From NCBI GenBank assembly GCA_033391075.1, contig JAWPMV010000001.1:7936001-8000000 (forward strand): 64,000 nt of DNA, written 5' to 3'. The notes below the pieces were generated by a model. The model was not told the DNA's origin. It worked only from the letters and a program-made list of their open reading frames with translations, and ran no database searches. The DNA is from Bacteroidia bacterium. Lineage in GTDB: Bacteria; Bacteroidota; Bacteroidia; J057. Of the stretch, positions 35,905-61,542 are shown one piece after another; the first letter of the stretch is position 1; every line of letters starts with the position of its first letter. The translations under genes were made by a program, and so were the position numbers.

Positions 35905-36780
35905 TTAAAAGGCTAATAATGCTTTCAGGCCCTCCATAGGAATGGACTCCACGTACATACTCAGACCGATTCCCATTAGCACGGCAATTGCGGCTGCTGT
36001 GGCTGTATAAAAATTAGATCTGGAAGGCTCTCTTTGCTTTCTTTTTAGCATACCTTCATATACGCTCAGCCTATTCTTCTCCTCTCTACTCATAGAAAGA
36101 GGTTTGTAGAGGCTACTTTCATGGTCTTCGAGGAAATACAATCCCCAGGGCAACTTCCCACTTTCGATATCCTGAATGTCGAATGGCCATTTGAAATGAT
36201 CCTGCTCTATATCGTATTTCAATCTGTAGGCACCGAAACGCGGAAAACGTTTTTGGACACGTACCAGGGCTTGTTGAATACTGGCTCCTTTTGCAAGTGC
36301 TTTATAGAAGGTATTGGCCAATCTGTGAGAACGTCTGTCTCGTTTTTGTGTTTCCGAAATCATGACTGCAGGGATATCTCTCCGCGCCAGCATATCCAGC
36401 AAACGAGGAGTTGCACATCCATTTAGGTAGACCAGCTCCAGATTTGGGAGCAAATCAATTACCCGTGATAATTCATCGATATGAATATGCCATTCGGATT
36501 TTCCTGCTTCGATTCTTAGATGTTCACTTTCTGCATGACCACTAAAGTGCAGAACTTTTACCCGTTCCTGGTAATACTTTCTCCCAATAAAATCTGGAAA
36601 GAAGTAGGTGTTTACTACAGGATCTTTGTGAACAACTTCAAACAAAGGTTTTTTAGATCCGAAAGAGAGAATCTTTGATATACGCTGTCTTTCATTAAAA
36701 AGGTAATTCAGTCTTTTGCCTTTGCGAGAGCTATTTACGCAAGCTAGATAGACGATCGGTTTTTTGGTTGTCATTTCCAT
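35905..36780 (-). CDS. Tail-anchored CHAT-domain (caspase-like) protein, catalytic dyad intact
   Basis: A 291-residue protein with no signal peptide. The N-terminal two thirds is a CHAT peptidase-like domain: strand VKVLHFSGHAESEHLRI holds the expected catalytic His82, and LELVYLNGCATPRLLDML holds Cys122. Further CHAT landmarks are IPAVMISETQKRD, FYKALAKGASIQQAL and LPWGLYFL. A C-terminal membrane helix (about 256-276) follows, and the last residues LKALLAF are shared with the next paralogue. This fits a cytoplasm-facing protease tethered to the membrane. Substrate unknown. It has its own terminator. Confidence 0.8.
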   Translation of the reverse strand: MEMTTKKPIVYLACVNSSRKGKRLNYLFNERQRISKILSFGSKKPLFEVVHKDPVVNTYFFPDFIGRKYYQERVKVLHFSGHAESEHLRIEAGKSEWHIHIDELSRVIDLLPNLELVYLNGCATPRLLDMLARRDIPAVMISETQKRDRRSHRLANTFYKALAKGASIQQALVRVQKRFPRFGAYRLKYDIEQDHFKWPFDIQDIESGKLPWGLYFLEDHESSLYKPLSMSREEKNRLSVYEGMLKRKQREPSRSNFYTATAAAIAVLMGIGLSMYVESIPMEGLKALLAF

Positions 36781-45919: not shown

Positions 45920-48900
45920 ATGCATTACAATTTGCGCAAGTATATTCACCTTGCCTTACTACTCAATCTTGCCCTCATCGGGACCTACCTGAATGCCGGA
46001 GCTCAGTGTGTAGGCGCATTTAAAGTTTTGCACTATACTGAAACTTCTGGAGTAAATCACAATACGAAGGTCCAATCTCTCGCACTTTTCCAAAGTATCG
46101 GATCAACGTACAACTTCATTGTTGTAGAAGACAGTACAGGAGTAGAATTCAATACGCTGGCAAATCTCGAAACCTATGCAGTAGTCATTTTCTCAAATAC
46201 ATCGGGAGATGCTATTTTGACTCCTGCCCAACGAGCCAATTTCGAAGCTTATATCAATGGAGGAGGAAGCTATATGGGAATCCATGCAGCTGCCGAAACC
46301 TATCGGCACACCTCTGCACTAAGTAGCGGGGTAGGAGTTTGGGACTGGTTTGCTGAAACCGTCAATGGAGTCAGTGCACAGGAAACTCCCAAGGCTACCA
46401 GTCCTGCCAAGACAGATGTACTGACCCAGGAACCCATAGCTCAGGCTTATTTTATAGGGATACCAAATCCCTGGACGAAAACAGATGAGTTTTACTATTG
46501 GGAAAATGGATACCAGAATACAGCCTTTCTGGAAGTACTGACGGTCGATTCTACAGGAAGCCAGACTTATGATGTTTCCAGAATGGCGGCACATGTTTCT
46601 GACCTGGCAACAGGCGGGCGTGCATTTTATACGACCCTGGGGCACTCTCCCGCTGATTTTAGCAGTGATGCCGACTTTCAGAATTTTATGCGGAATGCAG
46701 TCCTTTGGACTTCAGCTCCCAATATTGACATTACGATTGGTACGGGCCTGACCGTGACAGGTGTAGTAACGGATGCCAGTTGCGATACCGATGATGGAGC
46801 CATTGATATTACCACTACAGGTGGTTCTGGAACCTATACCTATAATTGGTCTAATGGAATAAATACAGAAGATGTTTCAGGCCTGGCTCCCGGAGAATAT
46901 GGAGTGTTGGCAAATGATGGACAAGGCTGTTACGGATTGTTGGTTTTTGATGTCGAAACCGGACCTTTCCCGATAGTAGATATTGATACCCTGCAGGAAA
47001 TTGATTGTAATGGTGTTGCAGATGGATCTCTGATCGCCAATGTAAGTGGGGGAGGAGCTCCTTTTACCTATGCATGGGATTCTGGCCAGACTACAGCTAC
47101 CATTAGTGGGCTGGGACCTGCAACTTATGAAGTAATCGTTACGAATGATGCAGGATGTAAGGATACAGCTCAGGCGACACTTTCTGAGCCACCAGCCTTA
47201 ACCCTGGGAATTACACAAACGCAATTTATCCAGTGTTTTGGTGATGTAACAGGTGGCTTACTTGGAACAGCAGGAGGAGGAGTAGCACCTTATTCCTATT
47301 CCTGGAGCAGTGGCCAATCAACTGCTGCAGTGAATGGCCTGGCAGCAGGCAAATACGTGCTTACGGTTACAGATGCCAATCTTTGTACGATCAAAGATAG
47401 CCTGACAATTACCCAACCCACAGAATTAAATATCAGCCTTTCTGAGACCCAATCAATTTCTTGTTTTGGATTGGCTGATGGAGAAATAACTTCTACAATA
47501 AGTGGAGGAACCGGACCGTATACTTATGCCTGGTCCAATGGCGGAACAACGGCTATCATCAATGGTCTGGATACCGGAAAATATGTCTTGACGCTTACGG
47601 ATGCTAATGGATGTGTTGCAAAAGATTCCCTGACTTTGACTCAGCCGGATAGCCTGATCGCTACCGCCTCTATTACAAATCAAATTAGTTGTTTCGGAGC
47701 TAATGATGGTGCCGGACAAGTTGTGCTTACAGGAGGGACAGCTCCTTTTACCTATGTTTGGAGTTCTGGCTCAACTGCAGCCACCACCAATAATTTAGGT
47801 CCTGGTACCTATATCATTGACATCACCGATGCCAATGGTTGTACGGCAAAAGATAGCATCACCTTAGTTGAGCCGACTTTATTGACACTCAGTCTAAGCG
47901 AAACCAATAGCATTGACTGTTTCGGAGATGCAGATGCTGAAATTACAGCAACCGCAGGTGGAGGAACTCTGCCTTATACCTATAGTTGGGACAATGGAGC
48001 AAATACCTCTGTGATTTCGCCCCTCGATACCGGGAAATATGTACTCACCCTGACCGATGCAAACAATTGCATTGTTAAAGATTCACTAACCATTACCCAG
48101 CCGGATACCTTAACAGTAACTGCATCCATCCAAAGCATCATCAGTTGTTTTGGAGCCAATGATGGAGCTGTAACATCCGTAGTAAGTGGGGGCACAGCGC
48201 CTTATATCTATAGTTGGACAGGAGGGGCAGCTACTGCCTCAAGTACGAATCTTGGACCTGCGACCTATGTCATCAATATTACAGATGCAAATGGATGTAC
48301 CGCTATAGATAGTGTAGTGCTTACTGAACCCGCAGCCTTGACAACTACCTTAACAGAGAGTCAGGCAATTGATTGTTTTGGAGCCGCTACAGGAGAAATT
48401 ACAGCAGTCGTAGGAGGAGGAACAGCTCCTTTTACCTATGCCTGGGATAATGGACAGACTACAGCAATTGCTTCGAACCTGAGTGCGGGCAAGCATGTTC
48501 TCACAGTTACCGATGCCAATGGATGTATAAAGAAAGATAGCCTTACGTTGACTGAGCCGACTTTATTGACACTCAGTCTAAGTGAAACCAATAGCATTGA
48601 CTGTTTCGGAGATGCAGATGCTGAAATTACAGCAACCGCAGGTGGAGGAACTCTGCCTTATACCTATAATTGGGACAATGGAGCAAATACCTCTGTGATT
48701 TCGCCCCTCGATACCGGGAAATATGTACTCACCCTGACCGATGCAAACAATTGCATTGTTAAAGATTCACTAACCATTACCCAGCCGGATACCTTAACAG
48801 TAACTGCATCCATCCAAAGCATCATCAGTTGTTTTGGAGCCAATGATGGAGCTGTAACATCCGTAGTAAGTGGGGGCACAGCGCCTTATATCTATAGTTG

Positions 48901-51900
48901 GACAGGTGGGGCAGCTACTGCCTCAAGTACGAATCTTGGACCTGCGACCTATGTCATCAATATTACAGATGCAAATGGATGTACCGCTGTAGATAGTGTA
49001 GTGCTTACTGAACCCGCAGCCTTGACAACTACCTTAACAGAGAGTCAGGCAATTGATTGTTTTGGAGCCGCTACAGGAGAAATTACAGCAATCGTAGGAG
49101 GAGGAACAGCTCCTTTTACCTATGCCTGGGATAATGGACAGACTACGGCCATTGCCACCAATCTGAGTGTGGGCAAGCATGTTCTCACAGTTACTGATGC
49201 CAATGGATGTATAAAGAAAGATTCTCTTACGCTTACTCAGCCAACAGAGCTGATTGTGAGTCTGAGTATAACGAATAACATTTCCTGTTTCGGAGGAAAT
49301 GATGGAGAAATAACGGCTAGTGTTTCAGGTGGAACCTTAGCCTATACCTACTCCTGGGACAATGGCCAAACTACGGCTGTTGCCTCAAATCTGAGTGTAG
49401 GAAAGCATGTGTTGACGGTAACGGATGCCAATGGATGTGTGAAGAAAGATTCCGTCATTTTGGGAGAACCTACCCAATTGATTCCTCAAGTTAGTATCAG
49501 CAATCAGATTAGCTGCTTTGGTGCAAATGATGGAAGTGCATTGGCGGGCGCTACAGGAGGAACAGCACCTTATTCCTATTCCTGGAATACAGGAGCGACC
49601 ACAGCCGCAATTACAAATCTGGGACCCGGCACTTATATCGCTACGATTACCGATGCGAATGGATGTACTGAAATAGACAGTGTTAGCCTGGTCGAACCTC
49701 CGCAATTATTAGTAGGTCTAACCCTAAGTGAGGAAATCAGTTGCTTTGGGGAAATGGATGGTGAAATCGTGGCAAATGCCAGCGGTGGAACCTTACCCTA
49801 TACCTATTCCTGGGATAATGGCCAAACAACTTCGATCAATGGAGGTTTGGGCATAGGGAAATACGTTTTGACCTTAACTGATGCCAATGGTTGTGTAGTT
49901 AAAGATTCTTTGACCCTTACACAGCCTGACACCCTGATTGCTACGGCTTCTGTTGCTACGATCATCTCCTGCTTTGGAGCCAATGATGGAGCTGTACAGG
50001 CGGCTGTTGTAGGAGGGACAGGCCCTTATACCTATTTGTGGAACAATGGACCTACAACGGCATTGAATCCCAATTTGGGACCAGGCAGCTATATCGTAAC
50101 GGTAAATGATGATCGGGGCTGTGTGGATATCGATACCGTTGACCTGAGCGAACCGCCAGCCTTGACACTAAGTTTGGCAGAAACCCAATCCATTGATTGT
50201 TTTGGATTGACTACAGGAGCCATTAGCTCAACAGTAGGTGGAGGAACCGCTCCTTATACCTATGCCTGGGACAATGGATCTACGATGTCAGACCTCCTGG
50301 GACTAGCTGCCGGGAAATATATATTGACTGTAACGGATGCGAATGGCTGTACGATTACAGATTCTTTGGAGCTTGTGCAGCCCGATAGTCTTATCGCAAC
50401 GGCAAGCGTAGTAAATCAGATAAGTTGTTTTGGTGCAGCAGATGGAAGCGCCAGTGTAGCCCAAAGTGGAGGCACGGCTCCTTATACCTATGTTTGGTCC
50501 AATGGACAGAGTACAGCAACAGCTACTGCTCTTAGTCCTGGAACTTATACAGTAACGGTAACAGATGTGAATGGATGTACAGACACCAGCAGTGTACTCA
50601 TCACCCAACCGCCGATCCTTCAACTAAATATGGTGGAAGCCCTTGAGATCAGTTGTTTTGGCGAAACGGATGGAGCCATTAGTGCGTTTGTTTCTGGTGG
50701 GACACCATTTTATACCTATGCCTGGGATGATGGCCAAATCAATCAAACGGCTATAAATCTTGGGAGTGGTTGGCATTATGTAACAGCTACCGATCAGAAT
50801 GGTTGTACGATCAGAGATAGTTTATATCTGGATGAACCTGCCCCTCTTGTAGGTAATATTGCAGAGTTGAACTCCATTTTGTGTTATGGAAATAATAGCG
50901 GAGTTCTACAGGCAAGTGCTGGTGGAGGTAATCCTCCCTATGACTATCTCTGGAATACAGGATCTCCCAATGCGATCATCAATAACCTGCCCGCAGGACA
51001 GTATTCGGTGATTATTACAGATGTAAAGTCTTGTGTTGATACCGTAACCTTTGATCTTCAACAACCAGATAGCATAATAGTAAGTACTACGATCACACAG
51101 ACCATCTCCTGTAATGGAGCAAGCGATGGAGCTGTCGGTTCTCTGGTAACTGGAGGAGCAGCGCCCTATACCTATTTGTGGTCAAATGGAGTTACCACTT
51201 CTGATTTGATCAATGTACCCGCAGGTTCCTATGGCTTACTGGTTACAGATGCAAATGGATGTACAGGGGTAGCACTGGTGAATATCAGTGAACCTGCACC
51301 TTTAACCATAAATTTCAACAATACTCAGAATGTGAGCTGCTTTGGTGGTGCTGATGGGGAAGCTACAGCAGTAGTGAGTGGAGGAACGGCTCCTTATACC
51401 TATGTATGGAGTAATGGTCAAACGACTATGACTGCCATGAACCTGGCGGTGGGAACTTATACAGTAGTTGTTACGGATGATCGCTCTTGTGTAGATAGTG
51501 CGACAGTTGTCATTACTGAGCCTACTGCCTTGACGGCAACTTTAGGTGTCAGTCAGATTATCAATTGTAATGGAGGTAATGGTGGTAGTATCACAGCTAC
51601 GCCTATGGGAGGAACCGCTCCTTATACTTACCTCTGGAGCAATGGACAAAGTACGCAAACAGCTATAAACCTGATAGCCGGTACCTATACCGTTACTATT
51701 ACGGATTCTTTAAACTGTAGCTATGTAGACAGCCTGAATATTTCAGAACCCACAGTATTAAGGTCGACGCTCATGGAGGTCGCACCGATAAGCTGCCAGG
51801 GACAAACGGATGGTAGCTTGCAGATAGTTGCAGATGGAGGAACAGCTCCTTACAGTTACCTCTGGAGTACTGGATGGACCGGCGATATAATCACCGGATT

Positions 51901-53914
51901 GGGAGAAGGCTTTTATTCTGTAACAGTTACAGATTCTTTGGGTTGCACCAGCACATCGGATACGATGTTTGTCGCTCCTCAAAGTTTGCAGATAGAGATT
52001 GTTGTTTTAGATAGTATTGACTGCTTTCAAGCGAAAACAGCTTCCCTTACAGTAAATGTTCAGGGAGGAACCCCAAATTATATCTTTGATTGGTTTGATG
52101 GTTCTACAACCCAGGATAGAAGTGGATTGGGAGCCGGAACCTATAAATTGACAGTTATTGATGCCCGGGGTTGTTCTCAGGCTGATAGTGTTGTAATAGT
52201 CAGTCCTCCAGAATTGACCTCAACGATGAATCTTTTGTCGGATGCTTTATGCTTCGGATCTGCTGATGGACAGGCTGAAATTCTTCCAGCTGGGGGATCA
52301 CCTCCTTATAGCTACCTCTGGTCAAATGGAGATACCTCTGCCATAGCAGATAGCCTTCCCGCAGGGAGACATTATGTTACCCTCACGGATGACAGGAATT
52401 GTGTACTCATGGATAGCGTGGATGTGGGTGAGCCTACAGCATTGAGTGCTGTGATGGCAGTTGTCAATCCCATTACCTGCGCATTAGGAGCTGACGGACA
52501 ATTATCTGTAACTCCATCCGGAGGAACAGCCCCTTATACCTATCTCTGGAGCGATGGGCAAACAGATTCTCTGGCTATAAATTTGGCAGCCGATACCTTT
52601 AGTGTGGTGATTACGGATGCTAATGGATGTACACTGGCAGATACCCTGATCCTCACCGATCCTGCTCCGCTAAGTTTACAGATCGCTCAAACCCAATCCG
52701 CCAATTGCGGACTTGCGAATAATGGGGAAGCCCAGGCTACGATAGCTGGAGGAATTGCGCCTTATACCTATCAATGGGATAATGGACAAACAACGTCAAT
52801 TCTTCAGAATGTGGTTCCTGGTCAATACCTGCTTACCGTAACTGATTCTTTGGGATGTACGATCACGGACTCTGTAACTATTACAGAAGAAGTACCCTGG
52901 ACAGCAAGTATAAGCATAGTTGATTCCGTTACCTGTAGCGATACAAATGATGGAAGTGCCAGGGTGGATCTGGATGTCCCGAGTACCGGATTTAGCTTCA
53001 ACTGGAGCAATGGGCAAAACACCCAAATAGCTACAGACCTGGGGCCAGAAATGTACATCGTGAAAGTACAGGATCAGTTTGGATGTGATACAACTTTAGG
53101 CATTCAAATGAATCAACCGGACTCCATAGAGATATTTGCCTCTATCATTCTGGCAACTCCCGGGGAGTCTAATGGCTCAATCAAAGTAGATAGCCTACGG
53201 AATGGCACAGCTCCTTTTGACTTCTTCTGGTCCAGTGGAGATACAGATTCTTTGGCGAGCATGCTTGCTCAGGGAACCTATTTCCTCAATCTAGTAGATG
53301 CTAAAGGCTGTGAGGTACGACAGGAATTTCAGGTGGACACCACCACTTTTGCCTGGGAAAACTTCGAAGCCAGACCTGATTTCAACCTCTACCAGATACA
53401 ACTGATTTGGTCCAGTTTGAGAGAGGTCGGAAATGAGAAATATACGGTTGAAAGATCTATCGATAGATTGGCCTTTACGCCTATTTTGGAACAGCCTTCC
53501 GGAGGAGATAGCTTTAGCACCCAATCCTATGAAGACTGGGATGAGACTCCGATTGAAGGTAGAAGTTTCTATCGCATCAAGCAGACCAGCTATAATGGCT
53601 ATTTTACCTACTATTCACAGATACGGGAAGTATTCTTTGGAAATGAAGAACCCGGATATGTACTGGTATTCCCGGTGCCTGTGGTTCGTGGGGAAGATCT
53701 ACGAGTTGAATTTGAAATGAAGAATGTGAAGAGTACAGAGATTCTCCTACGTAACTCTGCACATCAGGAAGTATATAAACTGACTGTTCCTCTTCCTGAG
53801 GGTCGTCAATCCTTTGAGATACCAACGGAAGGCCTGAGTCCCGGACATTACTACATACTGGTAGGAAATGGTGACGAAGCCTATAGTGCTCAGTTGATTA
53901 TAGAGGATAATTAA
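45920..53914 (+). CDS. Giant secreted ThuA-SprB-repeat protein with T9SS tail, copy 2
   Basis: A 2664-residue paralogue of the protein at 38147 with the same architecture: signal peptide (to about residue 29), ThuA-like domain (FKVLHYTETSGVNHNTKVQS, YAVVIFSNTSGDAIL, GGSYMGIHAAAETYRHTS, GGRAFYTTLGHSP), about 29 SprB-type repeats, a beta-sandwich segment and a T9SS type A tail (VFPVPVVRGEDLRVEFEM, ending GHYYILVGNG). The ThuA head and tail are conserved between copies while the repeat number differs. Three repeats are duplicated almost exactly (47872-49239). Likely surface-displayed by the type IX system; adhesion or gliding is inferred from the SprB repeats. Confidence 0.88.
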   Translation: MHYNLRKYIHLALLLNLALIGTYLNAGAQCVGAFKVLHYTETSGVNHNTKVQSLALFQSIGSTYNFIVVEDSTGVEFNTLANLETYAVVIFSNTSGDAILTPAQRANFEAYINGGGSYMGIHAAAETYRHTSALSSGVGVWDWFAETVNGVSAQETPKATSPAKTDVLTQEPIAQAYFIGIPNPWTKTDEFYYWENGYQNTAFLEVLTVDSTGSQTYDVSRMAAHVSDLATGGRAFYTTLGHSPADFSSDADFQNFMRNAVLWTSAPNIDITIGTGLTVTGVVTDASCDTDDGAIDITTTGGSGTYTYNWSNGINTEDVSGLAPGEYGVLANDGQGCYGLLVFDVETGPFPIVDIDTLQEIDCNGVADGSLIANVSGGGAPFTYAWDSGQTTATISGLGPATYEVIVTNDAGCKDTAQATLSEPPALTLGITQTQFIQCFGDVTGGLLGTAGGGVAPYSYSWSSGQSTAAVNGLAAGKYVLTVTDANLCTIKDSLTITQPTELNISLSETQSISCFGLADGEITSTISGGTGPYTYAWSNGGTTAIINGLDTGKYVLTLTDANGCVAKDSLTLTQPDSLIATASITNQISCFGANDGAGQVVLTGGTAPFTYVWSSGSTAATTNNLGPGTYIIDITDANGCTAKDSITLVEPTLLTLSLSETNSIDCFGDADAEITATAGGGTLPYTYSWDNGANTSVISPLDTGKYVLTLTDANNCIVKDSLTITQPDTLTVTASIQSIISCFGANDGAVTSVVSGGTAPYIYSWTGGAATASSTNLGPATYVINITDANGCTAIDSVVLTEPAALTTTLTESQAIDCFGAATGEITAVVGGGTAPFTYAWDNGQTTAIASNLSAGKHVLTVTDANGCIKKDSLTLTEPTLLTLSLSETNSIDCFGDADAEITATAGGGTLPYTYNWDNGANTSVISPLDTGKYVLTLTDANNCIVKDSLTITQPDTLTVTASIQSIISCFGANDGAVTSVVSGGTAPYIYSWTGGAATASSTNLGPATYVINITDANGCTAVDSVVLTEPAALTTTLTESQAIDCFGAATGEITAIVGGGTAPFTYAWDNGQTTAIATNLSVGKHVLTVTDANGCIKKDSLTLTQPTELIVSLSITNNISCFGGNDGEITASVSGGTLAYTYSWDNGQTTAVASNLSVGKHVLTVTDANGCVKKDSVILGEPTQLIPQVSISNQISCFGANDGSALAGATGGTAPYSYSWNTGATTAAITNLGPGTYIATITDANGCTEIDSVSLVEPPQLLVGLTLSEEISCFGEMDGEIVANASGGTLPYTYSWDNGQTTSINGGLGIGKYVLTLTDANGCVVKDSLTLTQPDTLIATASVATIISCFGANDGAVQAAVVGGTGPYTYLWNNGPTTALNPNLGPGSYIVTVNDDRGCVDIDTVDLSEPPALTLSLAETQSIDCFGLTTGAISSTVGGGTAPYTYAWDNGSTMSDLLGLAAGKYILTVTDANGCTITDSLELVQPDSLIATASVVNQISCFGAADGSASVAQSGGTAPYTYVWSNGQSTATATALSPGTYTVTVTDVNGCTDTSSVLITQPPILQLNMVEALEISCFGETDGAISAFVSGGTPFYTYAWDDGQINQTAINLGSGWHYVTATDQNGCTIRDSLYLDEPAPLVGNIAELNSILCYGNNSGVLQASAGGGNPPYDYLWNTGSPNAIINNLPAGQYSVIITDVKSCVDTVTFDLQQPDSIIVSTTITQTISCNGASDGAVGSLVTGGAAPYTYLWSNGVTTSDLINVPAGSYGLLVTDANGCTGVALVNISEPAPLTINFNNTQNVSCFGGADGEATAVVSGGTAPYTYVWSNGQTTMTAMNLAVGTYTVVVTDDRSCVDSATVVITEPTALTATLGVSQIINCNGGNGGSITATPMGGTAPYTYLWSNGQSTQTAINLIAGTYTVTITDSLNCSYVDSLNISEPTVLRSTLMEVAPISCQGQTDGSLQIVADGGTAPYSYLWSTGWTGDIITGLGEGFYSVTVTDSLGCTSTSDTMFVAPQSLQIEIVVLDSIDCFQAKTASLTVNVQGGTPNYIFDWFDGSTTQDRSGLGAGTYKLTVIDARGCSQADSVVIVSPPELTSTMNLLSDALCFGSADGQAEILPAGGSPPYSYLWSNGDTSAIADSLPAGRHYVTLTDDRNCVLMDSVDVGEPTALSAVMAVVNPITCALGADGQLSVTPSGGTAPYTYLWSDGQTDSLAINLAADTFSVVITDANGCTLADTLILTDPAPLSLQIAQTQSANCGLANNGEAQATIAGGIAPYTYQWDNGQTTSILQNVVPGQYLLTVTDSLGCTITDSVTITEEVPWTASISIVDSVTCSDTNDGSARVDLDVPSTGFSFNWSNGQNTQIATDLGPEMYIVKVQDQFGCDTTLGIQMNQPDSIEIFASIILATPGESNGSIKVDSLRNGTAPFDFFWSSGDTDSLASMLAQGTYFLNLVDAKGCEVRQEFQVDTTTFAWENFEARPDFNLYQIQLIWSSLREVGNEKYTVERSIDRLAFTPILEQPSGGDSFSTQSYEDWDETPIEGRSFYRIKQTSYNGYFTYYSQIREVFFGNEEPGYVLVFPVPVVRGEDLRVEFEMKNVKSTEILLRNSAHQEVYKLTVPLPEGRQSFEIPTEGLSPGHYYILVGNGDEAYSAQLIIEDN
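47872..49239 (+). repeat. Recent 684-bp tandem duplication inside giant gene 2
   Basis: Two nearly identical 684-bp units (about 47872-48555 and 48556-49239), each three SprB repeats (228 codons). Example: GAGCCGACTTTATTGACACT occurs at the start of both, and the stretches after it differ at only a few bases (AGCGAAACC versus AGTGAAACC; TATAGTTGG versus TATAATTGG). Antisense translations of 47980-48195 and 48664-48879 are identical, which confirms the period. Confidence 0.88.
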
Positions 53915-54333: not shown

Positions 54334-54358
54334 ATAGATTAAAAAAAGACAAAAAAAA

Positions 54359-54384
54359 AGCCCGAAACCTTCAGGTTTCGGGCT
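54359..54384 (-). terminator. Terminator of the TPR-CHAT gene
   Basis: AGCCCGAAACC (54359-54369), loop TTCA, GGTTTCGGGCT (54374-54384): a perfect 11-bp stem. On the minus strand it is followed by TTTTTTTTTG and more T residues. It lies 17 bases past the stop. Confidence 0.92.
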
Positions 54385-54400
54385 TGCAATATCAAAATAC

Positions 54401-57376
54401 TTATCCGTTAAACTTTTTATTTCGATTGATGAGGACAAGACCAATGCTACAAGCCATGAGTAAAGAGATGCTCAGAAGCAGGTAGCGAAGGATGGGGGAA
54501 GGGGGATTGATCGGTGCGGTGGAACCAATTACGGTGGGAGCTGCCCAGTAAAAAGGAGGTCCATAGCTACTTCCTTCCCGATTCATACTGATCTTGGCTT
54601 TTTGCAAGGCCAGGGCTTTGTTATCTCCTTCGATAAGGTTTTGGTAAAAACGCTTCATCAGCTCGGCATTAGATGCATTTTGCACACTCCATAAGGTTGC
54701 AACAATACTCTTCGCACCCGCATAGGTAAAACCTTGGGCCAAACTCGCAATTCCCTCTCCCGGCAGTAATTCTCCTGCCTGGGTTTCACATGCACTCAAT
54801 ACCACCAGTTCTGCATCCAGATTCAAATTGTAGAGATCGCTGAGATACAATCGCTCATTGTCGATATTATCCTCGACAGGCTGGAATGCGAGATAGCTGT
54901 ATTTGCTATTGTATTTATTGAATATACCGTGGGTACCTAAGTGAATAAAGCGATAGCCTGGAGCTTCTTTAATGAATCTTCCCAGTAGGCCTTTCTTTCC
55001 CCCAGTAGGAAAAATCTCTCCACCCAATAATTCCTGAATCCGCTGAATTTCATCTTTACTCGCTAGCAAAGGGATCAAATCAGCACTTGAATCCGGCTCG
55101 CTTCTCCCTTTGAAGAAATCCAGACTCATCAGCTTCTGTTCTTCTGCACTCAAGTCCTGTTTGGCTAAAGGCGTAAAGTCCGGGGCAAAAGCCAGGAATC
55201 CTTTTTGGAACCATCCCGCTGAGCTTTTGCGATTCACTCCTTTCAACCAAAGTTTTGCTGAGAAGTCATAGCTCGCAGCCATTTCCTTTAGTAAAAATGG
55301 ATACAAACTTACTGGAAGGTTTTCCTTTGGCTTCTGTGTAAGCAAAGCATCTATAGGCAAATAATAGATTTCTCTATCCGGAATGATAATCGAATATTTC
55401 CATTTATCCTTATCCCAAAGTTCTCCTATCAATTCCTCAAACAACTGATTCCCGAGACAATCAAATAGCTTCTTCTGCTCTGCGGGAACTTCATTGATCC
55501 AGTATTCTGTATGAGGGAGTAAGGCTGCATATTCCTGTATCTCATCTTTCATGGGACTTATTTCCCTCAACTCGATGTGATTTTTACTCAATGCAAAGGC
55601 AAACCATTTATTATCTCCAGCGAAATACTCAATCATCAAGGTCGAATCTCCCAATTGAGCCTGGATTTCCGCTACATTCACCAGTTCCGTATCGTATTTG
55701 ATGCGGTAATAATCCGGATACTTTCTCCCAAATTCTTCAATAAGAGCAGCCAGTTCTCTTTTCTTCTCCAGAATCTCTTCCAGGACTTCTTTATAGCTCT
55801 CATCTGCTTCCTCCATCTGGTCTCTCTGCTGCTCAAAAATCGCAATCTCTCTTTTTAACTGGTTTTCATGATCGAGTGCTTCCTGGGGAATGTCCGCAAA
55901 AGATTTCGCCTCTTTATCGATCATAGAAGCATATAGCAGGGTGGCTTTCGCTTTTTCAGACAATTGAAAGGCATAAGCATTATTTCCCTGATAAAATGCT
56001 ACTTCAATGGCTCCTTCATAGGTAGGATAAACCTCATTCATGAGAAACAATTTGGACTCCTGCTCCTGAAAATTGGTGCGAAGTTCATCAATGAGTTTTA
56101 TCGCCAGGAAGTAGTGATCATTTGCTGCTTGTAAAGCTTTGGGATTCTGATCTGCCAGATATTGCTGGAAAAAGGTTTGAGCCTTGGCTCCCAGGGTCTC
56201 TATCAAAAAGCGATTGGAAGCATCTCCTTCTAATTTATCAAATGCAGGTAATTGAGTAAGGTCGGTACTATCATGTGCTTTTACCATAAGGGAAAGCGCT
56301 TGCTGATAATAGGTAAAGGCTTCCTCAAATTTCCCTTCTTTTCTATATACATCACCAATACCGGTCAGGCTATTTCCGAGGAAAATTCTCCCTTTAGCCG
56401 AATTCGCAATGGTTCTGTAAATTTTTTCTGCTTGCTGATAATTGTCTATGGCTGTTTCATATTGATCTTTTTCAAAATAAATCAAGGCTAGATTTGAATA
56501 CGCGCCAGCGCGTATAAATTTGTCCCTGGCAGATGCCGCGATTGTTTTTTCGTAATAATTGATGGCTTCAGGAAGATTCTTACCGAGGTAATACATATTG
56601 CCAAGGTTCATATAGATTTTCTGGATCCAGATTCCTTTGGCTTTGTCTATACTCAGTTTCTCTACTTCCTTCAGGTGAGCAATTCCCTGCTCATGTTCTT
56701 TTAGCTTTTCGAAGATGACTCCTCTTTGATTTCCGCTTTTTACCTGCCAACTATATTTTTCAATTTCGCCATAGAGATTCCAGGCTACCGTATTGAAGCC
56801 AAGTGCGCCATATGGATCACCTTTATCAATATGTAGCTGTGCGGCTTCATGGTATAAATAGGCTTTAAAGAATGTGTCATCTTTATCGAGTACACCGATT
56901 TTAGAATTGACTTCAATGAAGCCCTGATCTAATAGCTTTTTTGACTCTTCCAGGCGAAGCAATTGTCGATTTGCCATAGAAAGATTCGCATAACATTTTA
57001 CAATATTATGATTTCCCGGAGGCAGGCTATCTTTTCGGATTCGAAGGGCAATTTGGTACAATTGAATGGCATTTTCCTGATACTTCAGGTTTAATGCACG
57101 TGTAGCAAGTTTGTACGCAAAATCTGCATGTTCAAGGGTGTAAATTTGCTCGGAGCATGACGAAGAAGCAAGCAAGTCAAAAGCAGCTTCATAGTCTGCG
57201 AGGGCTTTCTTTTCAAGAAGAATTTGTTCTGCTGGATCCTGGCTGTTTCGAATAGAAGTAACGTATTGTCCAGCTTGTCGGTACAGGGAATCTACGCTTT
57301 GTGTACAATCATTGGCATACATTCCCAGATGGCTTTGGATTATTATCCAAAGCAGAAAGGGCATTCTGTGTTTCAT
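54401..57376 (-). CDS. Exported TPR-CHAT protein with C-terminal membrane anchor
   Basis: A 991-residue protein. A signal peptide (MKHRMPFLLWIIIQSHLGMY, cleavage near Ala/Asn 21-22) is followed by a TPR superhelix (about 60-400; GNMYYLGKNLPEAINYYEKT, AYSNLALIYFEKDQYETAID, GIGDVYRKEGKFEEAFTYYQ), a coiled coil (about 490-550) and a CHAT domain (about 620-950) with catalytic His816 in FIHLGTHGIFN and Cys863 in VVLSACETQAGELLPGEG. One membrane helix (962-983) with a short basic tail (NRNKKFNG) ends it. The caspase-like domain is thus predicted outside the cytoplasm, unlike the CHAT pair at 35.9-37.9 kb. It is the last gene of the sigma-TPR-subtilase run, but a terminator separates it from the subtilase gene, so it may have its own promoter. 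Confidence 0.88.
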   Translation of the reverse strand: MKHRMPFLLWIIIQSHLGMYANDCTQSVDSLYRQAGQYVTSIRNSQDPAEQILLEKKALADYEAAFDLLASSSCSEQIYTLEHADFAYKLATRALNLKYQENAIQLYQIALRIRKDSLPPGNHNIVKCYANLSMANRQLLRLEESKKLLDQGFIEVNSKIGVLDKDDTFFKAYLYHEAAQLHIDKGDPYGALGFNTVAWNLYGEIEKYSWQVKSGNQRGVIFEKLKEHEQGIAHLKEVEKLSIDKAKGIWIQKIYMNLGNMYYLGKNLPEAINYYEKTIAASARDKFIRAGAYSNLALIYFEKDQYETAIDNYQQAEKIYRTIANSAKGRIFLGNSLTGIGDVYRKEGKFEEAFTYYQQALSLMVKAHDSTDLTQLPAFDKLEGDASNRFLIETLGAKAQTFFQQYLADQNPKALQAANDHYFLAIKLIDELRTNFQEQESKLFLMNEVYPTYEGAIEVAFYQGNNAYAFQLSEKAKATLLYASMIDKEAKSFADIPQEALDHENQLKREIAIFEQQRDQMEEADESYKEVLEEILEKKRELAALIEEFGRKYPDYYRIKYDTELVNVAEIQAQLGDSTLMIEYFAGDNKWFAFALSKNHIELREISPMKDEIQEYAALLPHTEYWINEVPAEQKKLFDCLGNQLFEELIGELWDKDKWKYSIIIPDREIYYLPIDALLTQKPKENLPVSLYPFLLKEMAASYDFSAKLWLKGVNRKSSAGWFQKGFLAFAPDFTPLAKQDLSAEEQKLMSLDFFKGRSEPDSSADLIPLLASKDEIQRIQELLGGEIFPTGGKKGLLGRFIKEAPGYRFIHLGTHGIFNKYNSKYSYLAFQPVEDNIDNERLYLSDLYNLNLDAELVVLSACETQAGELLPGEGIASLAQGFTYAGAKSIVATLWSVQNASNAELMKRFYQNLIEGDNKALALQKAKISMNREGSSYGPPFYWAAPTVIGSTAPINPPSPILRYLLLSISLLMACSIGLVLINRNKKFNG

Positions 57377-57438
57377 TTGCTTGGGTATTTACAAGGTCTT
57401 CTAAATAACTCCTAAAAGCTGTAAATATTGCCAAGACA

Positions 57439-57475
57439 AAAAGGTCGAATCATCTTTTAGACAATTCGACCTTTT
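57439..57475 (-). terminator. Terminator between subtilase and TPR-CHAT genes
   Basis: AAAAGGTCGAAT (57439-57450) and ATTCGACCTTTT (57464-57475) form a perfect 12-bp stem with T-rich sequence on both sides, so it can act in both directions. It lies 26 bases past the subtilase stop. Confidence 0.85.
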
Positions 57476-57500
57476 CTTTTTTCCCAAATACGGAAGAAAA

Positions 57501-59837
57501 TTATGGGCTTCTTCTCAGGACAAAATAGGCCAGAATGAACATGATAATGAGGATCAAAATTATCCACCACCAGTAGTTGGCTGTGGGGGTATCAGTTCCA
57601 ATTTTTATCTTGACAACAGCTTCGGAACATACAGAAGAAGCTGAACAAATCTGGTAGGTAAAGCTTACTTCTTTATCAGAGGCCTGAGGACTAAAACTGA
57701 TGGTCCCGTCAGCATTCACGATTGCTTCTCCATCAGCCGGATCTAATGCCTGTGTGATTGTAGGCAGGAGTCCAGTCGAGGGACAATCGTTGAGCCTGAC
57801 ATCAAAACTCAGGCTTTGTCCATTTGCTACCAGATACGCATCTTCTCGAGCGAGAGGGACATTATTACAATCGTCAATGAGGACCTTTAATTTCCGGTTA
57901 TCATCAATCTTATTTGCAATCCCGGCCTCTACGATAGAGTAATCAGGATTTTTGGAAGAAGCATCAAGGTTTACAGCAGCGGGTGCACCTGGACTTTGGG
58001 CTTTTGCTACTGAAATAGGATGTGATAATACCGCTGTAACAAAAGGGGCAGCCATAGAGGTTCCAGACATGATTCCATAAGAACCACCATTTACTGTGCT
58101 TCGAATATTTGTACCAGGGGCTGCTATTTTTGCAATGAAATCCGAAAAATTGGATGTTGCTGCAAGGCTGGTATAATTTTCATCCATAGCTCCTACAGCC
58201 AAAATAAGTTGAGGATAGCTTTCTGCGAATGCTGCTGGCCAAAAAGGATCGGTTTTTAAGTCATCTCCATTGTTTCCTGTGGAAGCGATAATTTGTGTTT
58301 TGGCTACACTCGTTTGCAGGCTGGCAATAACCATCCCAAGGAGTTCAGATTTAGGACCTTTGTAGCCCATACTGATATTGATGAGATCAGCTTCTTCCAG
58401 CGCTGCATAGCGAATTCCACAAGCCAAATCGAAAATCCGGGTATCATTTCCGTTTTTCCCTACCTGAATACTAATAAGCTCGATAGGTAATTCGGGGATG
58501 AAACCTGTGATGATCCCTGCAACATGAGTACCATGAGAAGAGGAGCCTTGTATGTCATAAGGATTATCATCGTCAGCATAAAAATTATATCCTTGTGCTT
58601 GATTGTCGCTCATGCAAGCGATTTTACTGGGATCAGTACTAAAGTGCCCCTTTAGATCCGGATGATCCTTATCTATCCCCAGGTCAATAACTGCTACTTT
58701 TACAGGAGCAAGATTACTCATGTCCAGACTCGTTTCCAGACGGATATTCAAGTCAGGTCCCGCTCCAATACCTGGACTTGGATCGACCAGATAGTCATAC
58801 CCCAGCTGGACATTATCACTTCCTCCTCCTACAGCTTCAACCTCTCCACATGCACTGGTAAGTAAGGAGACAGGGCCTACTACTTGATCTCCAAGTGAGT
58901 CCTGAAAACTTTCGGGGAAATGATAAAGACTGAACTCATCACATAAGCAGCCTTCTCCAGTTATAGGAGTTATGCCCAATTCCTCCATTCGTCTACGGAC
59001 TCTTTCTCTTCTCAATGTGGTCATATTCGGGTCTAGTCGAAGTATTGCCCTAAGCTTGCCTGTATTGTCCCTGGCAGATTCATGACTTTCATTGCCCGGA
59101 CTTACTATCAGCCTGATATTTACAGCTCTTGTATAGCCAAAGTTTGGACTCTGTCCATGCTCAAGTTGAACCGTATACTGTCCTGAATCGGTATAGGCTA
59201 CAGCTGGAATGCTCAAAATATTTGAAGGTCCTCTTTGGATAATTGTAGCTCCACCATTGGCATCAATTTTAGACCAGAGATAATTATTCCCAGCTGCTCC
59301 GGGGCCGGCTGGAGTAGTGTCTTCCTCAACTACCAATTCTACCGAGTCTCCCAGAATAGCACTTGCTTTCACATCTGGACCAAAGGATTTCTGTGGTGTG
59401 AGGGTAAAGTTGGGATTAGGAGGCGTTTGGATAAAAACGGAAACATCTGACAGGCTAAGTCGATTTAAGCTTACTGCCAGAAAAGATACAGATGGCGGCA
59501 AGCTGATAGCGGTTAGAAAGTTATCAGTTAATTCAACCGTGCTTAGCGCTGTCAGTTGAGTGCGGGGATCATATCCATCAAAAGTCCCTCGCAAATTATT
59601 TTCTGCTAAACTCAAGGCAATGACCTGGCCATTCCCATTTATATCAACTCCTGACCAGGTAGATGCTGGTGATCCCAGATCCCAGCCACGAACCCAGCGT
59701 GAGCCGTTTGTATTGTTATAAATAGTTACCAGAGCGAGTGAGTCCTGGGGATTGACTGGAGTTACTTGTTGAGCATATAACTGTGAGCTCAGTCCTACAA
59801 GTATGACTGACAATAGAAGTGCGCGTAGTTTCTTCAT
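57501..59837 (-). CDS. Membrane-anchored subtilisin-like serine protease (S8)
   Basis: A 778-residue exported protease. Signal peptide 1-22 (MKKLRALLLSVILVGLSSQL, then YAQ); leucine-rich-repeat-like cap (about 30-140; DSLALVTIYNNTNGSRW, VIALSLAENNLRGTF); Ig-like domain (about 150-245); a propeptide-like stretch (about 260-310, RAILRLDPNMTTLRRERVRR); then the S8 domain with Asp385 (VAVIDLGIDKDHPDL), His435 (SSSHGTHVAGI), oxyanion Asn522 (STGNNGD) and Ser594 (MSGTSMAAPFV). A C-terminal beta-sandwich (about 660-748) leads to a membrane helix (755-774) ending RRSP. All catalytic residues are present. It lies between the TPR/sigma genes and the TPR-CHAT gene, on the same strand; its substrate may be a locus product. 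Confidence 0.93.
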   Translation of the reverse strand: MKKLRALLLSVILVGLSSQLYAQQVTPVNPQDSLALVTIYNNTNGSRWVRGWDLGSPASTWSGVDINGNGQVIALSLAENNLRGTFDGYDPRTQLTALSTVELTDNFLTAISLPPSVSFLAVSLNRLSLSDVSVFIQTPPNPNFTLTPQKSFGPDVKASAILGDSVELVVEEDTTPAGPGAAGNNYLWSKIDANGGATIIQRGPSNILSIPAVAYTDSGQYTVQLEHGQSPNFGYTRAVNIRLIVSPGNESHESARDNTGKLRAILRLDPNMTTLRRERVRRRMEELGITPITGEGCLCDEFSLYHFPESFQDSLGDQVVGPVSLLTSACGEVEAVGGGSDNVQLGYDYLVDPSPGIGAGPDLNIRLETSLDMSNLAPVKVAVIDLGIDKDHPDLKGHFSTDPSKIACMSDNQAQGYNFYADDDNPYDIQGSSSHGTHVAGIITGFIPELPIELISIQVGKNGNDTRIFDLACGIRYAALEEADLINISMGYKGPKSELLGMVIASLQTSVAKTQIIASTGNNGDDLKTDPFWPAAFAESYPQLILAVGAMDENYTSLAATSNFSDFIAKIAAPGTNIRSTVNGGSYGIMSGTSMAAPFVTAVLSHPISVAKAQSPGAPAAVNLDASSKNPDYSIVEAGIANKIDDNRKLKVLIDDCNNVPLAREDAYLVANGQSLSFDVRLNDCPSTGLLPTITQALDPADGEAIVNADGTISFSPQASDKEVSFTYQICSASSVCSEAVVKIKIGTDTPTANYWWWIILILIIMFILAYFVLRRSP

Positions 59838-59963
59838 CAGATTGGTTCTGTTTATGTTTCTTATCCGGCCGGGAAATTGCGTTCTGTCCGGCCTATTCAG
59901 TACTTAGTATTCCCGTTGTAATGCTTTGTAAGCAAGAGGATTATAGCTAAAAGGAAAGAACTT

Positions 59964-60818
59964 TCAAAGTTCCTTCCCTAAAGGTTCCAGGCTCTTGAGG
60001 AGGCTGTTGTCCAGTTCTGCACAACTATATCCTGCCTCATTCTTAGTTTTTATTTTCTGCAAGCTTGCTTCATAGCCTGCTTTATTTTCTTGTTTTATCT
60101 GGAGCAAAGCCAGGTTCTTGAGGACCTTGCACTGAAAGGCATCGGCCTGTTCTTGCTCTGCACTGAGTCGCATCAGAATTTTCTCTGCTGCCTGATCATC
60201 TCCTGCCTGAGAGAAGGTCAAAGCCTGTACCAAATGATAATTTGAGGCTTCCGGAGCTTCAGATAAGAGGGAATCCAGGCTAGTTAGGACCTTGTCGTAC
60301 TGTTGAGCTTGTAGGAGGGAAGAAAGATAGACATCAAATTTCTCTTTTTCAGCCCCTGAGGGCGCTCCTGCCGTATTGCTCAGCATCAGATTGAGTTCCT
60401 GGGCGAAGCTGTTTTGGACTTCTTGTGAAAAATCTGGTCCCTGAAAAAGGCTATTGATAATAGCTCCGGCTATCAGGAGAATACAAGCAGCGATTGCGAT
60501 TCGATAGAGCAAACTGCGGTTTGTACCTTGTTTTTCTTCCCTGGCAGGCCTGGGATCAAATTGCACTACTTTCGCCTCGGCTTCTACCACAGATGTATCT
60601 AATTTGGTAGTATGCCACGATTCCTGGAAAGCTTTCATTTGCTTGATCCCTGCTTCCCGACTTTCCGCTTCTTCCAGAAAAGCTTCCCACTCTTCATATT
60701 CATCTGCGAAATCCGGATTGTTTTGCCGCTGATCTTCAATCTGTTCTTTGACAGAATCCGATGCGGAGCCCTCAAGGTAAGTGATCAACTCGTTTAAGGA
60801 TATTTCTTGATATTGCAT
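59964..60818 (-). CDS. One-TM protein with TPR-like periplasmic domain, possible anti-sigma factor
   Basis: A 284-residue protein starting 13 bases after the sigma-factor stop. The N-terminal cytoplasmic region (1-100) is acidic and helical (ELITYLEGSASDSVKEQIED, DEYEEWEAFLEE), like the sigma-binding part of anti-sigma factors, without a zinc motif. A membrane helix lies at about 106-123 (YRIAIAACILLIAGAIINSL) and a helical repeat domain follows outside (QQYDKVLTSLDSLLSEAPEA, LVQALTFSQAGDDQAAEKIL). Gene order sigma - one-TM protein is the classic ECF sigma/anti-sigma arrangement, which supports but does not prove the role. Confidence 0.75.
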   Translation of the reverse strand: MQYQEISLNELITYLEGSASDSVKEQIEDQRQNNPDFADEYEEWEAFLEEAESREAGIKQMKAFQESWHTTKLDTSVVEAEAKVVQFDPRPAREEKQGTNRSLLYRIAIAACILLIAGAIINSLFQGPDFSQEVQNSFAQELNLMLSNTAGAPSGAEKEKFDVYLSSLLQAQQYDKVLTSLDSLLSEAPEASNYHLVQALTFSQAGDDQAAEKILMRLSAEQEQADAFQCKVLKNLALLQIKQENKAGYEASLQKIKTKNEAGYSCAELDNSLLKSLEPLGKEL

Positions 60819-60831
60819 AATTGGCTTTTCT

Positions 60832-61542
60832 TTATTCGTCCTTGAAGTAATTAAGCAGCTCCTTGCCCTTGTCCCCCAAAGCCTTCCGAAGTTTCGGTAG
60901 TGCTCTATCTCGTAACGACCGTGTTTTGCCAGGAGCCCAATTCATTTCTTTTGATATTTCTCGATTTTGCATGTTGCCAAAAAATCTTAGTTCTATGTAG
61001 GCCCGCTGGTCCGGAGACAGATCTTCTATGCAGTCCCGCACGTGTTGAAAATCCATGTCCAGGTCCAGTTGAGCCATCGTGTTTTCGACTACTTCAGGCA
61101 GGCTTTCGGTTGCTATCGGGTGATTGGGACGAATATATTTATCGTATATATAGTTCTTCGTGACCCTTCCCAGCCATTTTTTGAAGTAGTTGTCTGGTCG
61201 TTTTGCTTTTTCCTGATCCTTGTCCAGCTCTTTTTTTAGCTTAAAGAACATCTCCTGTTTGATATCTTTTACCTCTTCCATGTTTTTGACCATGGAAATG
61301 GCAATAGAAGCCAGGTACCTGTCATACTTATTGAGCAGGTATTCGAGTATCCTTAAGTCTTTGGTTTTGCGATAGTAAGCAATGAGCTCCGGATCAGACT
61401 TGTGAGCGAAGTCCTTCGGAGAAAGTGGGTAGTTTTGCACAGGTAAATGGTTCTGGGTATCCTTATCATTTAAAGATAAGAACTTTGGTCTATCTGGCAA
61501 AGACTTGACTTTCTGGTGTTTTGGAGCTGTAAATTTCCCCAT
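60832..61542 (-). CDS. ECF-type RNA polymerase sigma factor
   Basis: A 236-residue sigma factor. After a 50-residue N-terminal extension rich in Lys and Pro, region 2 runs from SDPELIAYYRKTKDLRILEY through EVKDIKQEMFFKLKKEL to NYFKKWLGRVTKNYIYDKYI, and region 4 from IEDLSPDQRAYIELRFFGNM to SKEMNWAPGKTRSLRDRALP. The region 4 helix-turn-helix is complete. It is the first gene of the run sigma, one-TM TPR protein, S8 protease, TPR-CHAT. A bipartite promoter-like motif 100 bases upstream recurs at 54304, which suggests autoregulation and a small regulon. Confidence 0.92.
   Translation of the reverse strand: MGKFTAPKHQKVKSLPDRPKFLSLNDKDTQNHLPVQNYPLSPKDFAHKSDPELIAYYRKTKDLRILEYLLNKYDRYLASIAISMVKNMEEVKDIKQEMFFKLKKELDKDQEKAKRPDNYFKKWLGRVTKNYIYDKYIRPNHPIATESLPEVVENTMAQLDLDMDFQHVRDCIEDLSPDQRAYIELRFFGNMQNREISKEMNWAPGKTRSLRDRALPKLRKALGDKGKELLNYFKDE

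Follow-up and report, generated by a model that had tools for sequence, protein, structure and literature searches.

How might an event outside the cell reach a sigma factor whose gene stands in a row with those of two predicted exported proteases? The question is raised by four neighbouring genes in a 64,000-nucleotide stretch of DNA from Bacteroidia bacterium (GenBank assembly GCA_033391075.1, contig JAWPMV010000001.1, positions 7,936,001 to 8,000,000), which we refer to as the window. They encode an extracytoplasmic function (ECF) sigma factor (SIG), a protein with one transmembrane (TM) helix that is its probable anti-sigma factor (ANTI), a subtilase (SUB) and a protein that joins tetratricopeptide repeats (TPR) to a caspase-like CHAT domain (CHAT). 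A first-pass annotation had read the four as one signalling cassette in which a protease may cut the one-TM protein to release the sigma factor, and had proposed conserved gene order in other Bacteroidota as a check. When this check was run, the order SIG-aTPR-SUB-CHAT (aTPR denoting ANTI and its relatives) was found in two other genera, and the core of sigma factor, aTPR and membrane-anchored CHAT recurred in many Bacteroidota. We conclude that the four genes make up a genuine, conserved unit and that a mechanism in which CHAT acts on ANTI to free SIG is plausible.

The cassette in the window

The genes and their parts are as follows (coordinates are those of the window; aa, amino acids).

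60832..61542, minus strand: SIG, ECF-type sigma factor, 236 aa (TIGR02937, E 3.4e-20, over cut-off)
59964..60818, minus strand: ANTI (aTPR), probable anti-sigma factor with one TM helix, 284 aa; adjoins SIG and matches the aTPR profile
60519..60818, minus strand: ANTI residues 1-100, putative cytoplasmic sigma-binding domain (N-terminal-only relatives adjoin sigma genes; sub-threshold zf-HC2)
60444..60500, minus strand: ANTI TM helix, residues 107-125 (hydropathy; charge bias of relatives)
59970..60353, minus strand: ANTI TPR domain, residues 156-283, periplasmic by charge bias (helix pairs in model; fold search)
57501..59837, minus strand: SUB, exported subtilase, 778 aa (Peptidase_S8, E 6e-29; Big_9 at residues 658-744)
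58011..58703, minus strand: SUB S8 catalytic domain, residues 379-609 (PF00082), with Asp385/His435/Ser594
57516-57572, minus strand: SUB C-terminal TM anchor, residues 756-774 (hydropathy)
54401..57376, minus strand: CHAT, exported TPR-CHAT protein, 991 aa (PF12770, E 3.5e-49; TPR_12, E 1.7e-27)
54521..55453, minus strand: CHAT caspase-like domain, residues 642-952 (PF12770), with His816 and Cys863
54428..54484, minus strand: CHAT C-terminal TM anchor, residues 965-983, with basic tail (hydropathy; tail charge of relatives)

The list of open reading frames (ORFs) bears out the four same-strand genes of the first-pass annotation and their coordinates; the gaps between them are 13 (SIG-ANTI), 126 (ANTI-SUB) and 124 bases (SUB-CHAT). 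In the Pfam scan SIG matched Sigma70_r4_2 over cut-off (E 1.1e-7) and Sigma70_r2 slightly below it (E 1.3e-4). The residues that had been named as the catalytic triad of SUB and as the His and Cys of CHAT sit in the expected motifs, and the export of both proteins with a C-terminal membrane helix agrees with their N-termini, which look signal-like by eye, and with the helices at residues 756-774 and 965-983. The outside TPR domain that had been assigned to ANTI falls under the Pfam threshold (sole match TPR_19, E 0.0041, below its cut-off), yet a TPR-like repeat (residues ~151-284) is present in its AlphaFold model.

Conservation of the four-gene order

In genome G011 (locus L034) the order SIG-ANTI-SUB-CHAT is kept, with 28% identity to the window ANTI and 33% to the window CHAT; a 19,901-base stretch of this genome is identical to a contig of the metagenome-assembled genome (MAG) Bacteroidia bacterium CC_bin17 (L043 vs L117). 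The second case, G255 (L171), belongs to another family of the class; there the four genes are arranged identically but the subtilase is shorter, and the C-terminal helix of the CHAT is detected at the looser threshold of the 75-cassette survey described below. A subtilase upstream of CHAT with a sigma/aTPR pair nearby was also present in L040, L074, L112 (whose contig ends within the aTPR gene), L120, L125 and L138. A further locus, in G010 (L033 18430-19217, G010:C856), has a SIG gene that runs off the contig and an ANTI gene that stops just after the TM helix, with no SUB or CHAT nearby; we take it for a decayed cassette and base no conclusion on this single case.

At E 1e-4 only three of 395 genomes of the class, the window genome among them, yielded a relative of the window ANTI. 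Because the exact cassette is this rare, it was the general cassette, i.e. sigma factor, aTPR and anchored CHAT, that was tested for linkage. The earlier description of a two-protease cassette is true of the window; as a definition it is too narrow, since only 5/67 anchored cassettes have a subtilase among the co-directional genes that immediately precede CHAT, with a few more at a larger gap. The subtilase is one variant partner, and other cassettes carry other secreted partners.

Linkage of anchored CHATs to sigma/aTPR pairs

The window genome (9.49 Mb) contains 36 CHAT matches, all of which were examined, and 74 ECF sigma matches over cut-off. Twelve of the 36 CHATs are TPR-CHAT-sized (956-1096 aa) with a C-terminal hydrophobic helix, and for nine of these twelve a sigma gene lies within 6 kb, directly followed by an aTPR gene, whose product (210-284 aa) has one TM helix starting near residue 75-107. 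Given sigma-gene density alone, the probability of this is ~6e-7. In the neighbourhoods taken for the other 24 CHATs, two of which have a weak hydrophobic segment near the C-terminus, no sigma/aTPR pair was found (0/24). Most of these 24 (L019-L028, L174-L186) lack an N-terminal signal and have a common start like FLxFAND; they look like a separate intracellular class of CHATs, perhaps of the conflict-system kind.

Named genomes were scanned with five aligned CHAT sequences as the query, and the best 80 loci were kept. Many of these came from Saprospiraceae MAGs; others were from Aquimarina, Kordia, Fulvivirga, Runella, Agaribacillus, Bacteroidales MAGs and further sources, and a few, by their titles, belong outside Bacteroidota. 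Among CHATs with at least 6 kb of sequence on both sides, drawn from the window genome, G011, G013, G014, G020 and the named loci, a sigma/aTPR pair lay within 6 kb of 43 of the 71 anchored proteins vs 3 of the 15 unanchored ones (Fisher P 0.009), and one further anchored CHAT has a pair at 6-9 kb. The conserved linkage on which the proposal of a cassette depended was therefore found for the sigma/aTPR/anchored-CHAT core. The six CHATs examined in G020, from another family of the order, had neither anchor nor pair. One exported CHAT of that genome without a C-terminal anchor (L050 9323-13715) adjoins a one-TM protein of another kind, the 193 aa upstream neighbour of which does not resemble a sigma factor by eye; this is possibly a different wiring of the same idea.

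For the survey of cassettes we took 75 CHAT genes with a sigma/aTPR pair (67 anchored, 8 unanchored), leaving out L032, a truncated version of L034, and stretches shorter than 5 kb. Several of the 75 have one pair in common (L095, L104, L105, L133, L142, L143), i.e. two or three CHAT genes may accompany a single pair, as in Flavilitoribacter nigricans (L104) and Splendidivirga corallicola (L143). The pair is divergent from the CHAT gene in 27 cassettes, convergent with it in 25 and on the same strand in 23.

Linkage was also examined from the side of the aTPR proteins, using a profile (A4) built from 15 partners of other genomes with the window genome left out. In the window genome the top eight A4 matches (E 4.6e-48 to 1.1e-18, the last being the window ANTI) all lie at anchored-CHAT cassettes; the ninth cassette (L013) gave a weak match in two pieces. 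Across the class, with at most six candidates scored per genome, A4 had matches at E 1e-18 in at least 82 of the 395 genomes. We then took the best full-length match per genus in the first 20 genera outside the family of the window genome, and 12 of these 20 aTPR loci contained a CHAT gene, two of these twelve being cut by a contig end (L154, L165). With the CHAT genes of the same 20 genomes located at E 1e-10, a CHAT lay within 8 kb of 32 of the 46 listed aTPR matches, some of them partial, vs 0.72 expected, and of 11 of 20 when one aTPR match was taken per genome; conversely, 33 of the 62 CHATs in these genomes had a listed aTPR within 8 kb. These counts indicate that the sigma/aTPR pair is strongly tied to CHAT, yet also exists without it.

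Sequence distances between paralogous cassettes suggest that CHAT and aTPR have been inherited together. In the window genome (9 cassettes) the CHAT and aTPR distances were correlated with r 0.43 (P 0.047), and in G013 (10 cassettes) with r 0.46 (P 0.005), the P values here and below being uncorrected for the number of tests; since paralogues were compared inside one genome, species history cannot account for this correlation. CHAT and sigma distances were also correlated in the window genome (r 0.74, P 0.001).

The one-TM partner as a putative anti-sigma factor

Aligned aTPR partners have a common N-terminal stretch of the type IExYLxGxL, followed by the TM helix and then the TPR region. Nine A4 matches in the window genome (one of them L013) cover the N-terminal part only (profile start at position 13 or before, end at 143 or before), and all nine are encoded directly downstream of a sigma gene on the same strand. 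The strongest A4 match away from CHAT in this genome, a protein of 483 aa, likewise adjoins another sigma gene. The commonest weak Pfam match to aTPR relatives was zf-HC2 (11/32, best E 0.0013, sub-threshold). ANTI itself is encoded directly 3' of a sigma gene and has one TM helix with, by charge bias, its N-terminus inside, two features looked for in a membrane-bound anti-sigma factor. The earlier assignment of the one-TM protein as the partner of the sigma factor is thus supported by the N-terminal-only matches beside sigma genes, and the topology fits; ANTI is probably a membrane-bound anti-sigma factor. At two other places in the window genome (C1:6746225-6747589 and C4:15394-16657) TPR-bearing partners stand beside sigma genes with no CHAT match nearby, and are possible CHAT-free versions of the cassette.

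Topology, catalytic residues and predicted folds

The flanks of the aTPR TM helix are more basic on the N side than on the C side in 71 of the 75 cassettes, with four ties and never the reverse. In the anchored CHATs the tail past the helix was more basic in 57/67 and less basic in 5/67, and by a crude test 72 of the 75 paired CHATs have a hydrophobic N-terminus. By this charge bias aTPR has a cytoplasmic N-terminus and a periplasmic TPR domain, and CHAT is likewise periplasmic. Counted by alignment, the dyad corresponding to His816 and Cys863 is invariant in all 75 paired CHATs.

The AlphaFold model of ANTI (mean predicted local distance difference test score, pLDDT, 82) consists of a helical N-terminus, a TM helix and a TPR-like repeat. 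In a fold search the best 50 rows were all TPR or TPR-like, with Z scores of 11.7-13.0 over ANTI residues 151-284 that may reflect a common arrangement of helical repeats only; DdvA, a protein of Myxococcus xanthus discussed below, was absent from these best 50 rows, which cover the TPR part. The CHAT model (mean pLDDT 84) gave as its best fold match Csx29 of Craspase (Z 33.3, root mean square deviation (rmsd) 8.9, 549 residues), followed by separase (Z 28.0, rmsd 14.6, 673 residues), and also matched DdvA across both TPR and CHAT (PDB 8rot; Z 23.5, rmsd 12.0, 592 residues), with model residues 93-951 corresponding to 290-991 of the DdvA chain. When the CHAT-domain profile was run against the PDB, DdvA (8rot) came first (E 4.2e-7) and Csx29 second (E 0.009), and the His and Cys of the cassette CHATs were aligned in both. 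The window CHAT is on these grounds a predicted protease of caspase-like fold with a His-Cys dyad. The PDB title of DdvA (8rot, 8rw5) calls it a transmembrane anti-sigma factor; from this title and the aligned range it follows that its anti-sigma domain and TM helix lie before residue 290 of 8rot.

Secreted partners encoded upstream of CHAT

Among the ORFs that run co-directionally upstream of CHAT, type IX secretion tails are over-represented (18/65 vs 86/1818 other ORFs, P 3e-9), and so are subtilases (6/65 vs 14/1818, P 4e-5). Five cassette proteins had served as seeds of the tail profile, and the window protein as seed of the subtilase profile, so we recalculated both values without them, obtaining P 7e-6 and P 3e-4, respectively. 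Pfam found a type IX tail in 5 of the 10 partner proteins scanned.

Other features of the window

54358..54385, minus strand: terminator-like hairpin 3' of CHAT, 12-pair stem (7 G-C) followed by a T run (stem search)

Terminator-like sites number six in the region vs 7.7 expected, and the one past CHAT has the longest stem; promoter-like sites were about as common as in shuffled sequence (19 vs 15.6, sd 4.5). PADLOC returned general TPR, BovA and subtilase matches only. An arginine-deiminase-like protein (PF02274; 61803-63257, minus strand) is encoded 260 bases upstream of SIG on the same strand. Two giant genes on the plus strand run convergent to the cassette: the product of 38147-45685 combines SprB repeats in 25 stretches with a ThuA domain and ends of the type IX secretion tail kind, and the adjoining 45920-53914 encodes a repeat protein that resembles it by eye. 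A short CHAT-like protein of 291 aa without TPRs (35905-36780, minus strand; 29.9 bits) carries only a weakly hydrophobic segment towards its end, and its gene has no sigma/aTPR pair in the neighbourhood.

Proposed mechanism and alternatives

We propose that the cassette is a membrane-spanning ECF signalling unit in which CHAT acts on ANTI to free SIG, and we give this proposal an even chance of being right. At the inner membrane ANTI would hold SIG through its N-terminal domain in the cytoplasm, while its TPR domain lies in the periplasm; a C-terminal helix would fix the exported TPR-CHAT protein in this membrane too, where it would face that TPR domain. The TPR arm of CHAT would sense a partner encoded beside it, which is secreted or lies at the surface; in the window this would be the anchored subtilase or a product of the subtilase. 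Sensing of the partner would activate the CHAT domain, leading to ANTI being cut or otherwise inactivated on the periplasmic side, and further proteolysis would then free SIG. Direct action of CHAT on aTPR is the best reading because of the fusion seen in DdvA, the precedent of Csx29, the common compartment and the invariant dyad. As for the window subtilase, it may serve as the partner that is sensed, it may activate CHAT, or it may act as a second protease that cuts.

Several results weigh against this proposal. No pair lies within 6 kb of 28 of the 71 anchored CHATs, and no CHAT is seen at 8 of the 20 aTPR loci of the reverse test (or at 9 of 20 when whole-genome CHAT lists are used with a limit of 8 kb), so that neither part always needs the other locally. 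The CHAT and sigma distances were uncorrelated in G013 (r 0.20, P 0.18), as were those of the CHAT TPR arm and aTPR (all, r 0.00, P 0.49; window genome, -0.05; G013, 0.17, P 0.18). Run against the PDB, the N-terminal aTPR profile had no significant match to a solved anti-sigma structure, the zf-HC2 matches of the putative anti-sigma domain stay below threshold, and the topology is based on hydropathy and charge.

The same linkage would be expected if the sigma factor acted upstream of CHAT, i.e. if some other signal opened the ECF pair, which would then switch on the exported partner and the CHAT protease, with CHAT maturing, cutting or controlling that partner (or serving defence) and not cutting ANTI. 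Such a scheme, in which partner and CHAT act on each other, accommodates the enrichment of type IX tails and subtilases directly upstream of CHAT, and common control is suited by the position of the pair, which is upstream on the same strand in 20 of the 75 cassettes and divergent in 27. However, 25 of the 75 are convergent, for 25 of the 67 anchored CHATs any co-directional upstream gene is more than 350 bases away, and DdvA carries an anti-sigma factor and a CHAT in one chain, which favours direct action; we regard the scheme as rather unlikely. A different division of labour would make CHAT a receptor, its TPR-CHAT arm binding both a ligand and the aTPR domain while ANTI is opened by site-1 and site-2 proteases or, here, by the subtilase. 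Both ANTI and CHAT do carry TPR domains placed in the same compartment, and the window subtilase is itself membrane-anchored with a full triad, but a His and a Cys invariant in 75/75 paired CHATs are more than a pure receptor needs, and we think this arrangement improbable. That the four genes are neighbours without common function might be argued from the absence of the subtilase from most cassettes and from the three genomes in 395 with relatives of the window ANTI; the conserved order and both linkage tests, with nine of twelve anchored CHATs paired in the window genome alone (P ~6e-7), contradict it, and leave it very improbable.

Significance

If CHAT does act on ANTI, the exported, anchored CHAT family tied to sigma/anti-sigma pairs would be a candidate for the activating protease of many Bacteroidota ECF sigma factors. 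As versions of the unit are present in many Bacteroidota, it looks like a widespread, little-described route from outside events to gene expression. A broader idea, which we put forward tentatively and as possible rather than probable, is that Bacteroidota have a large undescribed class of periplasmic anchored caspase-like site-1 proteases dedicated to ECF anti-sigma factors, with every such protease reading a secreted or surface partner of its own; the paralogous cassettes of a genome would then form an outward-facing sensor panel, a split relative of DdvS/DdvA and a mirror image of Craspase, possibly used in self/non-self or phage recognition. ECF/anti-sigma switches are already known, as are links between CHAT and sigma factors (in Craspase, and fused in one chain in DdvA). 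In the literature searched we found no description of a two-chain form that is exported, anchored and present across many Bacteroidota, nor any paper that links anchored CHAT proteins to Bacteroidota sigma/aTPR pairs; most subscription papers lay outside this search, so that priority is uncertain.

Comparison with known systems

DegS is a serine protease, whereas the protease linked to the cassette is caspase-like, which sets the cassette apart from systems of the RseA/DegS and RsiW type. In these systems, as outlined in PMC10028731, an anti-sigma factor is opened by proteolysis and thereby frees an ECF sigma factor. PorA of Porphyromonas gingivalis, which carries a type IX secretion tail, is described as feeding an ECF sigma pathway, PorXY-SigP (PMC7712824); there a two-component system replaces the anti-sigma factor and CHAT. 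In the neighbourhoods of EACC2 a caspase-type protease, an ECF sigma factor and a TPR (DUF1822) protein are encoded side by side, according to PMC8195603, much as in the cassette; those neighbourhoods are set in EACC2/TRADD-N conflict systems, and the account of them drawn on here does not mention an outward-facing anchored CHAT.

By CHAT sequence, the nearest protein of solved structure is DdvA, the partner of DdvS in Myxococcus xanthus. DdvS is described as active once DdvA has been inactivated, by an outside signal of unknown nature (PMC4374960), and as controlling an antiphage island (PMC12288465). Both systems have an ECF sigma gene linked to a one-TM partner, i.e. a transmembrane anti-sigma factor in DdvA and the probable one here, and a TPR-CHAT part, the cassette CHAT being related to DdvA by sequence and fold. 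They differ in that DdvA is one chain, whereas the cassette has two membrane proteins and a gene for an exported partner. Among 163 CHAT ORFs of at least 500 aa (duplicates included) we found no convincing one-chain fusion of anti-sigma domain, TM helix, TPR and CHAT. Three of these ORFs have a first TM helix at 45-350; none follows a sigma gene, and by eye they were judged to be start-codon or contig-end artefacts. With DdvA as the best PDB match of the CHAT profile, the cassette looks like a split DdvS/DdvA system, and that DdvA joins in one chain what two linked genes hold here is a classical sign of common function. The two-chain cassettes would offer tractable models for the unknown trigger of DdvA-type switches.

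Craspase, the type III-E CRISPR system of Csx29, Csx30 and CASP-sigma, likewise ties a TPR-CHAT protease to an ECF sigma factor, whose inhibitor is described as being removed through cutting by Csx29 (PMC10028731). It is RNA-guided, its substrate is Csx30 and Csx29 is unanchored, whereas the cassette CHAT is exported and membrane-anchored; the six window proteins scanned included no family of CRISPR parts (Cas7-11 among them), CRISPR arrays not having been searched for. The mechanism proposed for the cassette would thus be the outward-facing counterpart of the Csx29/Csx30/CASP-sigma switch.

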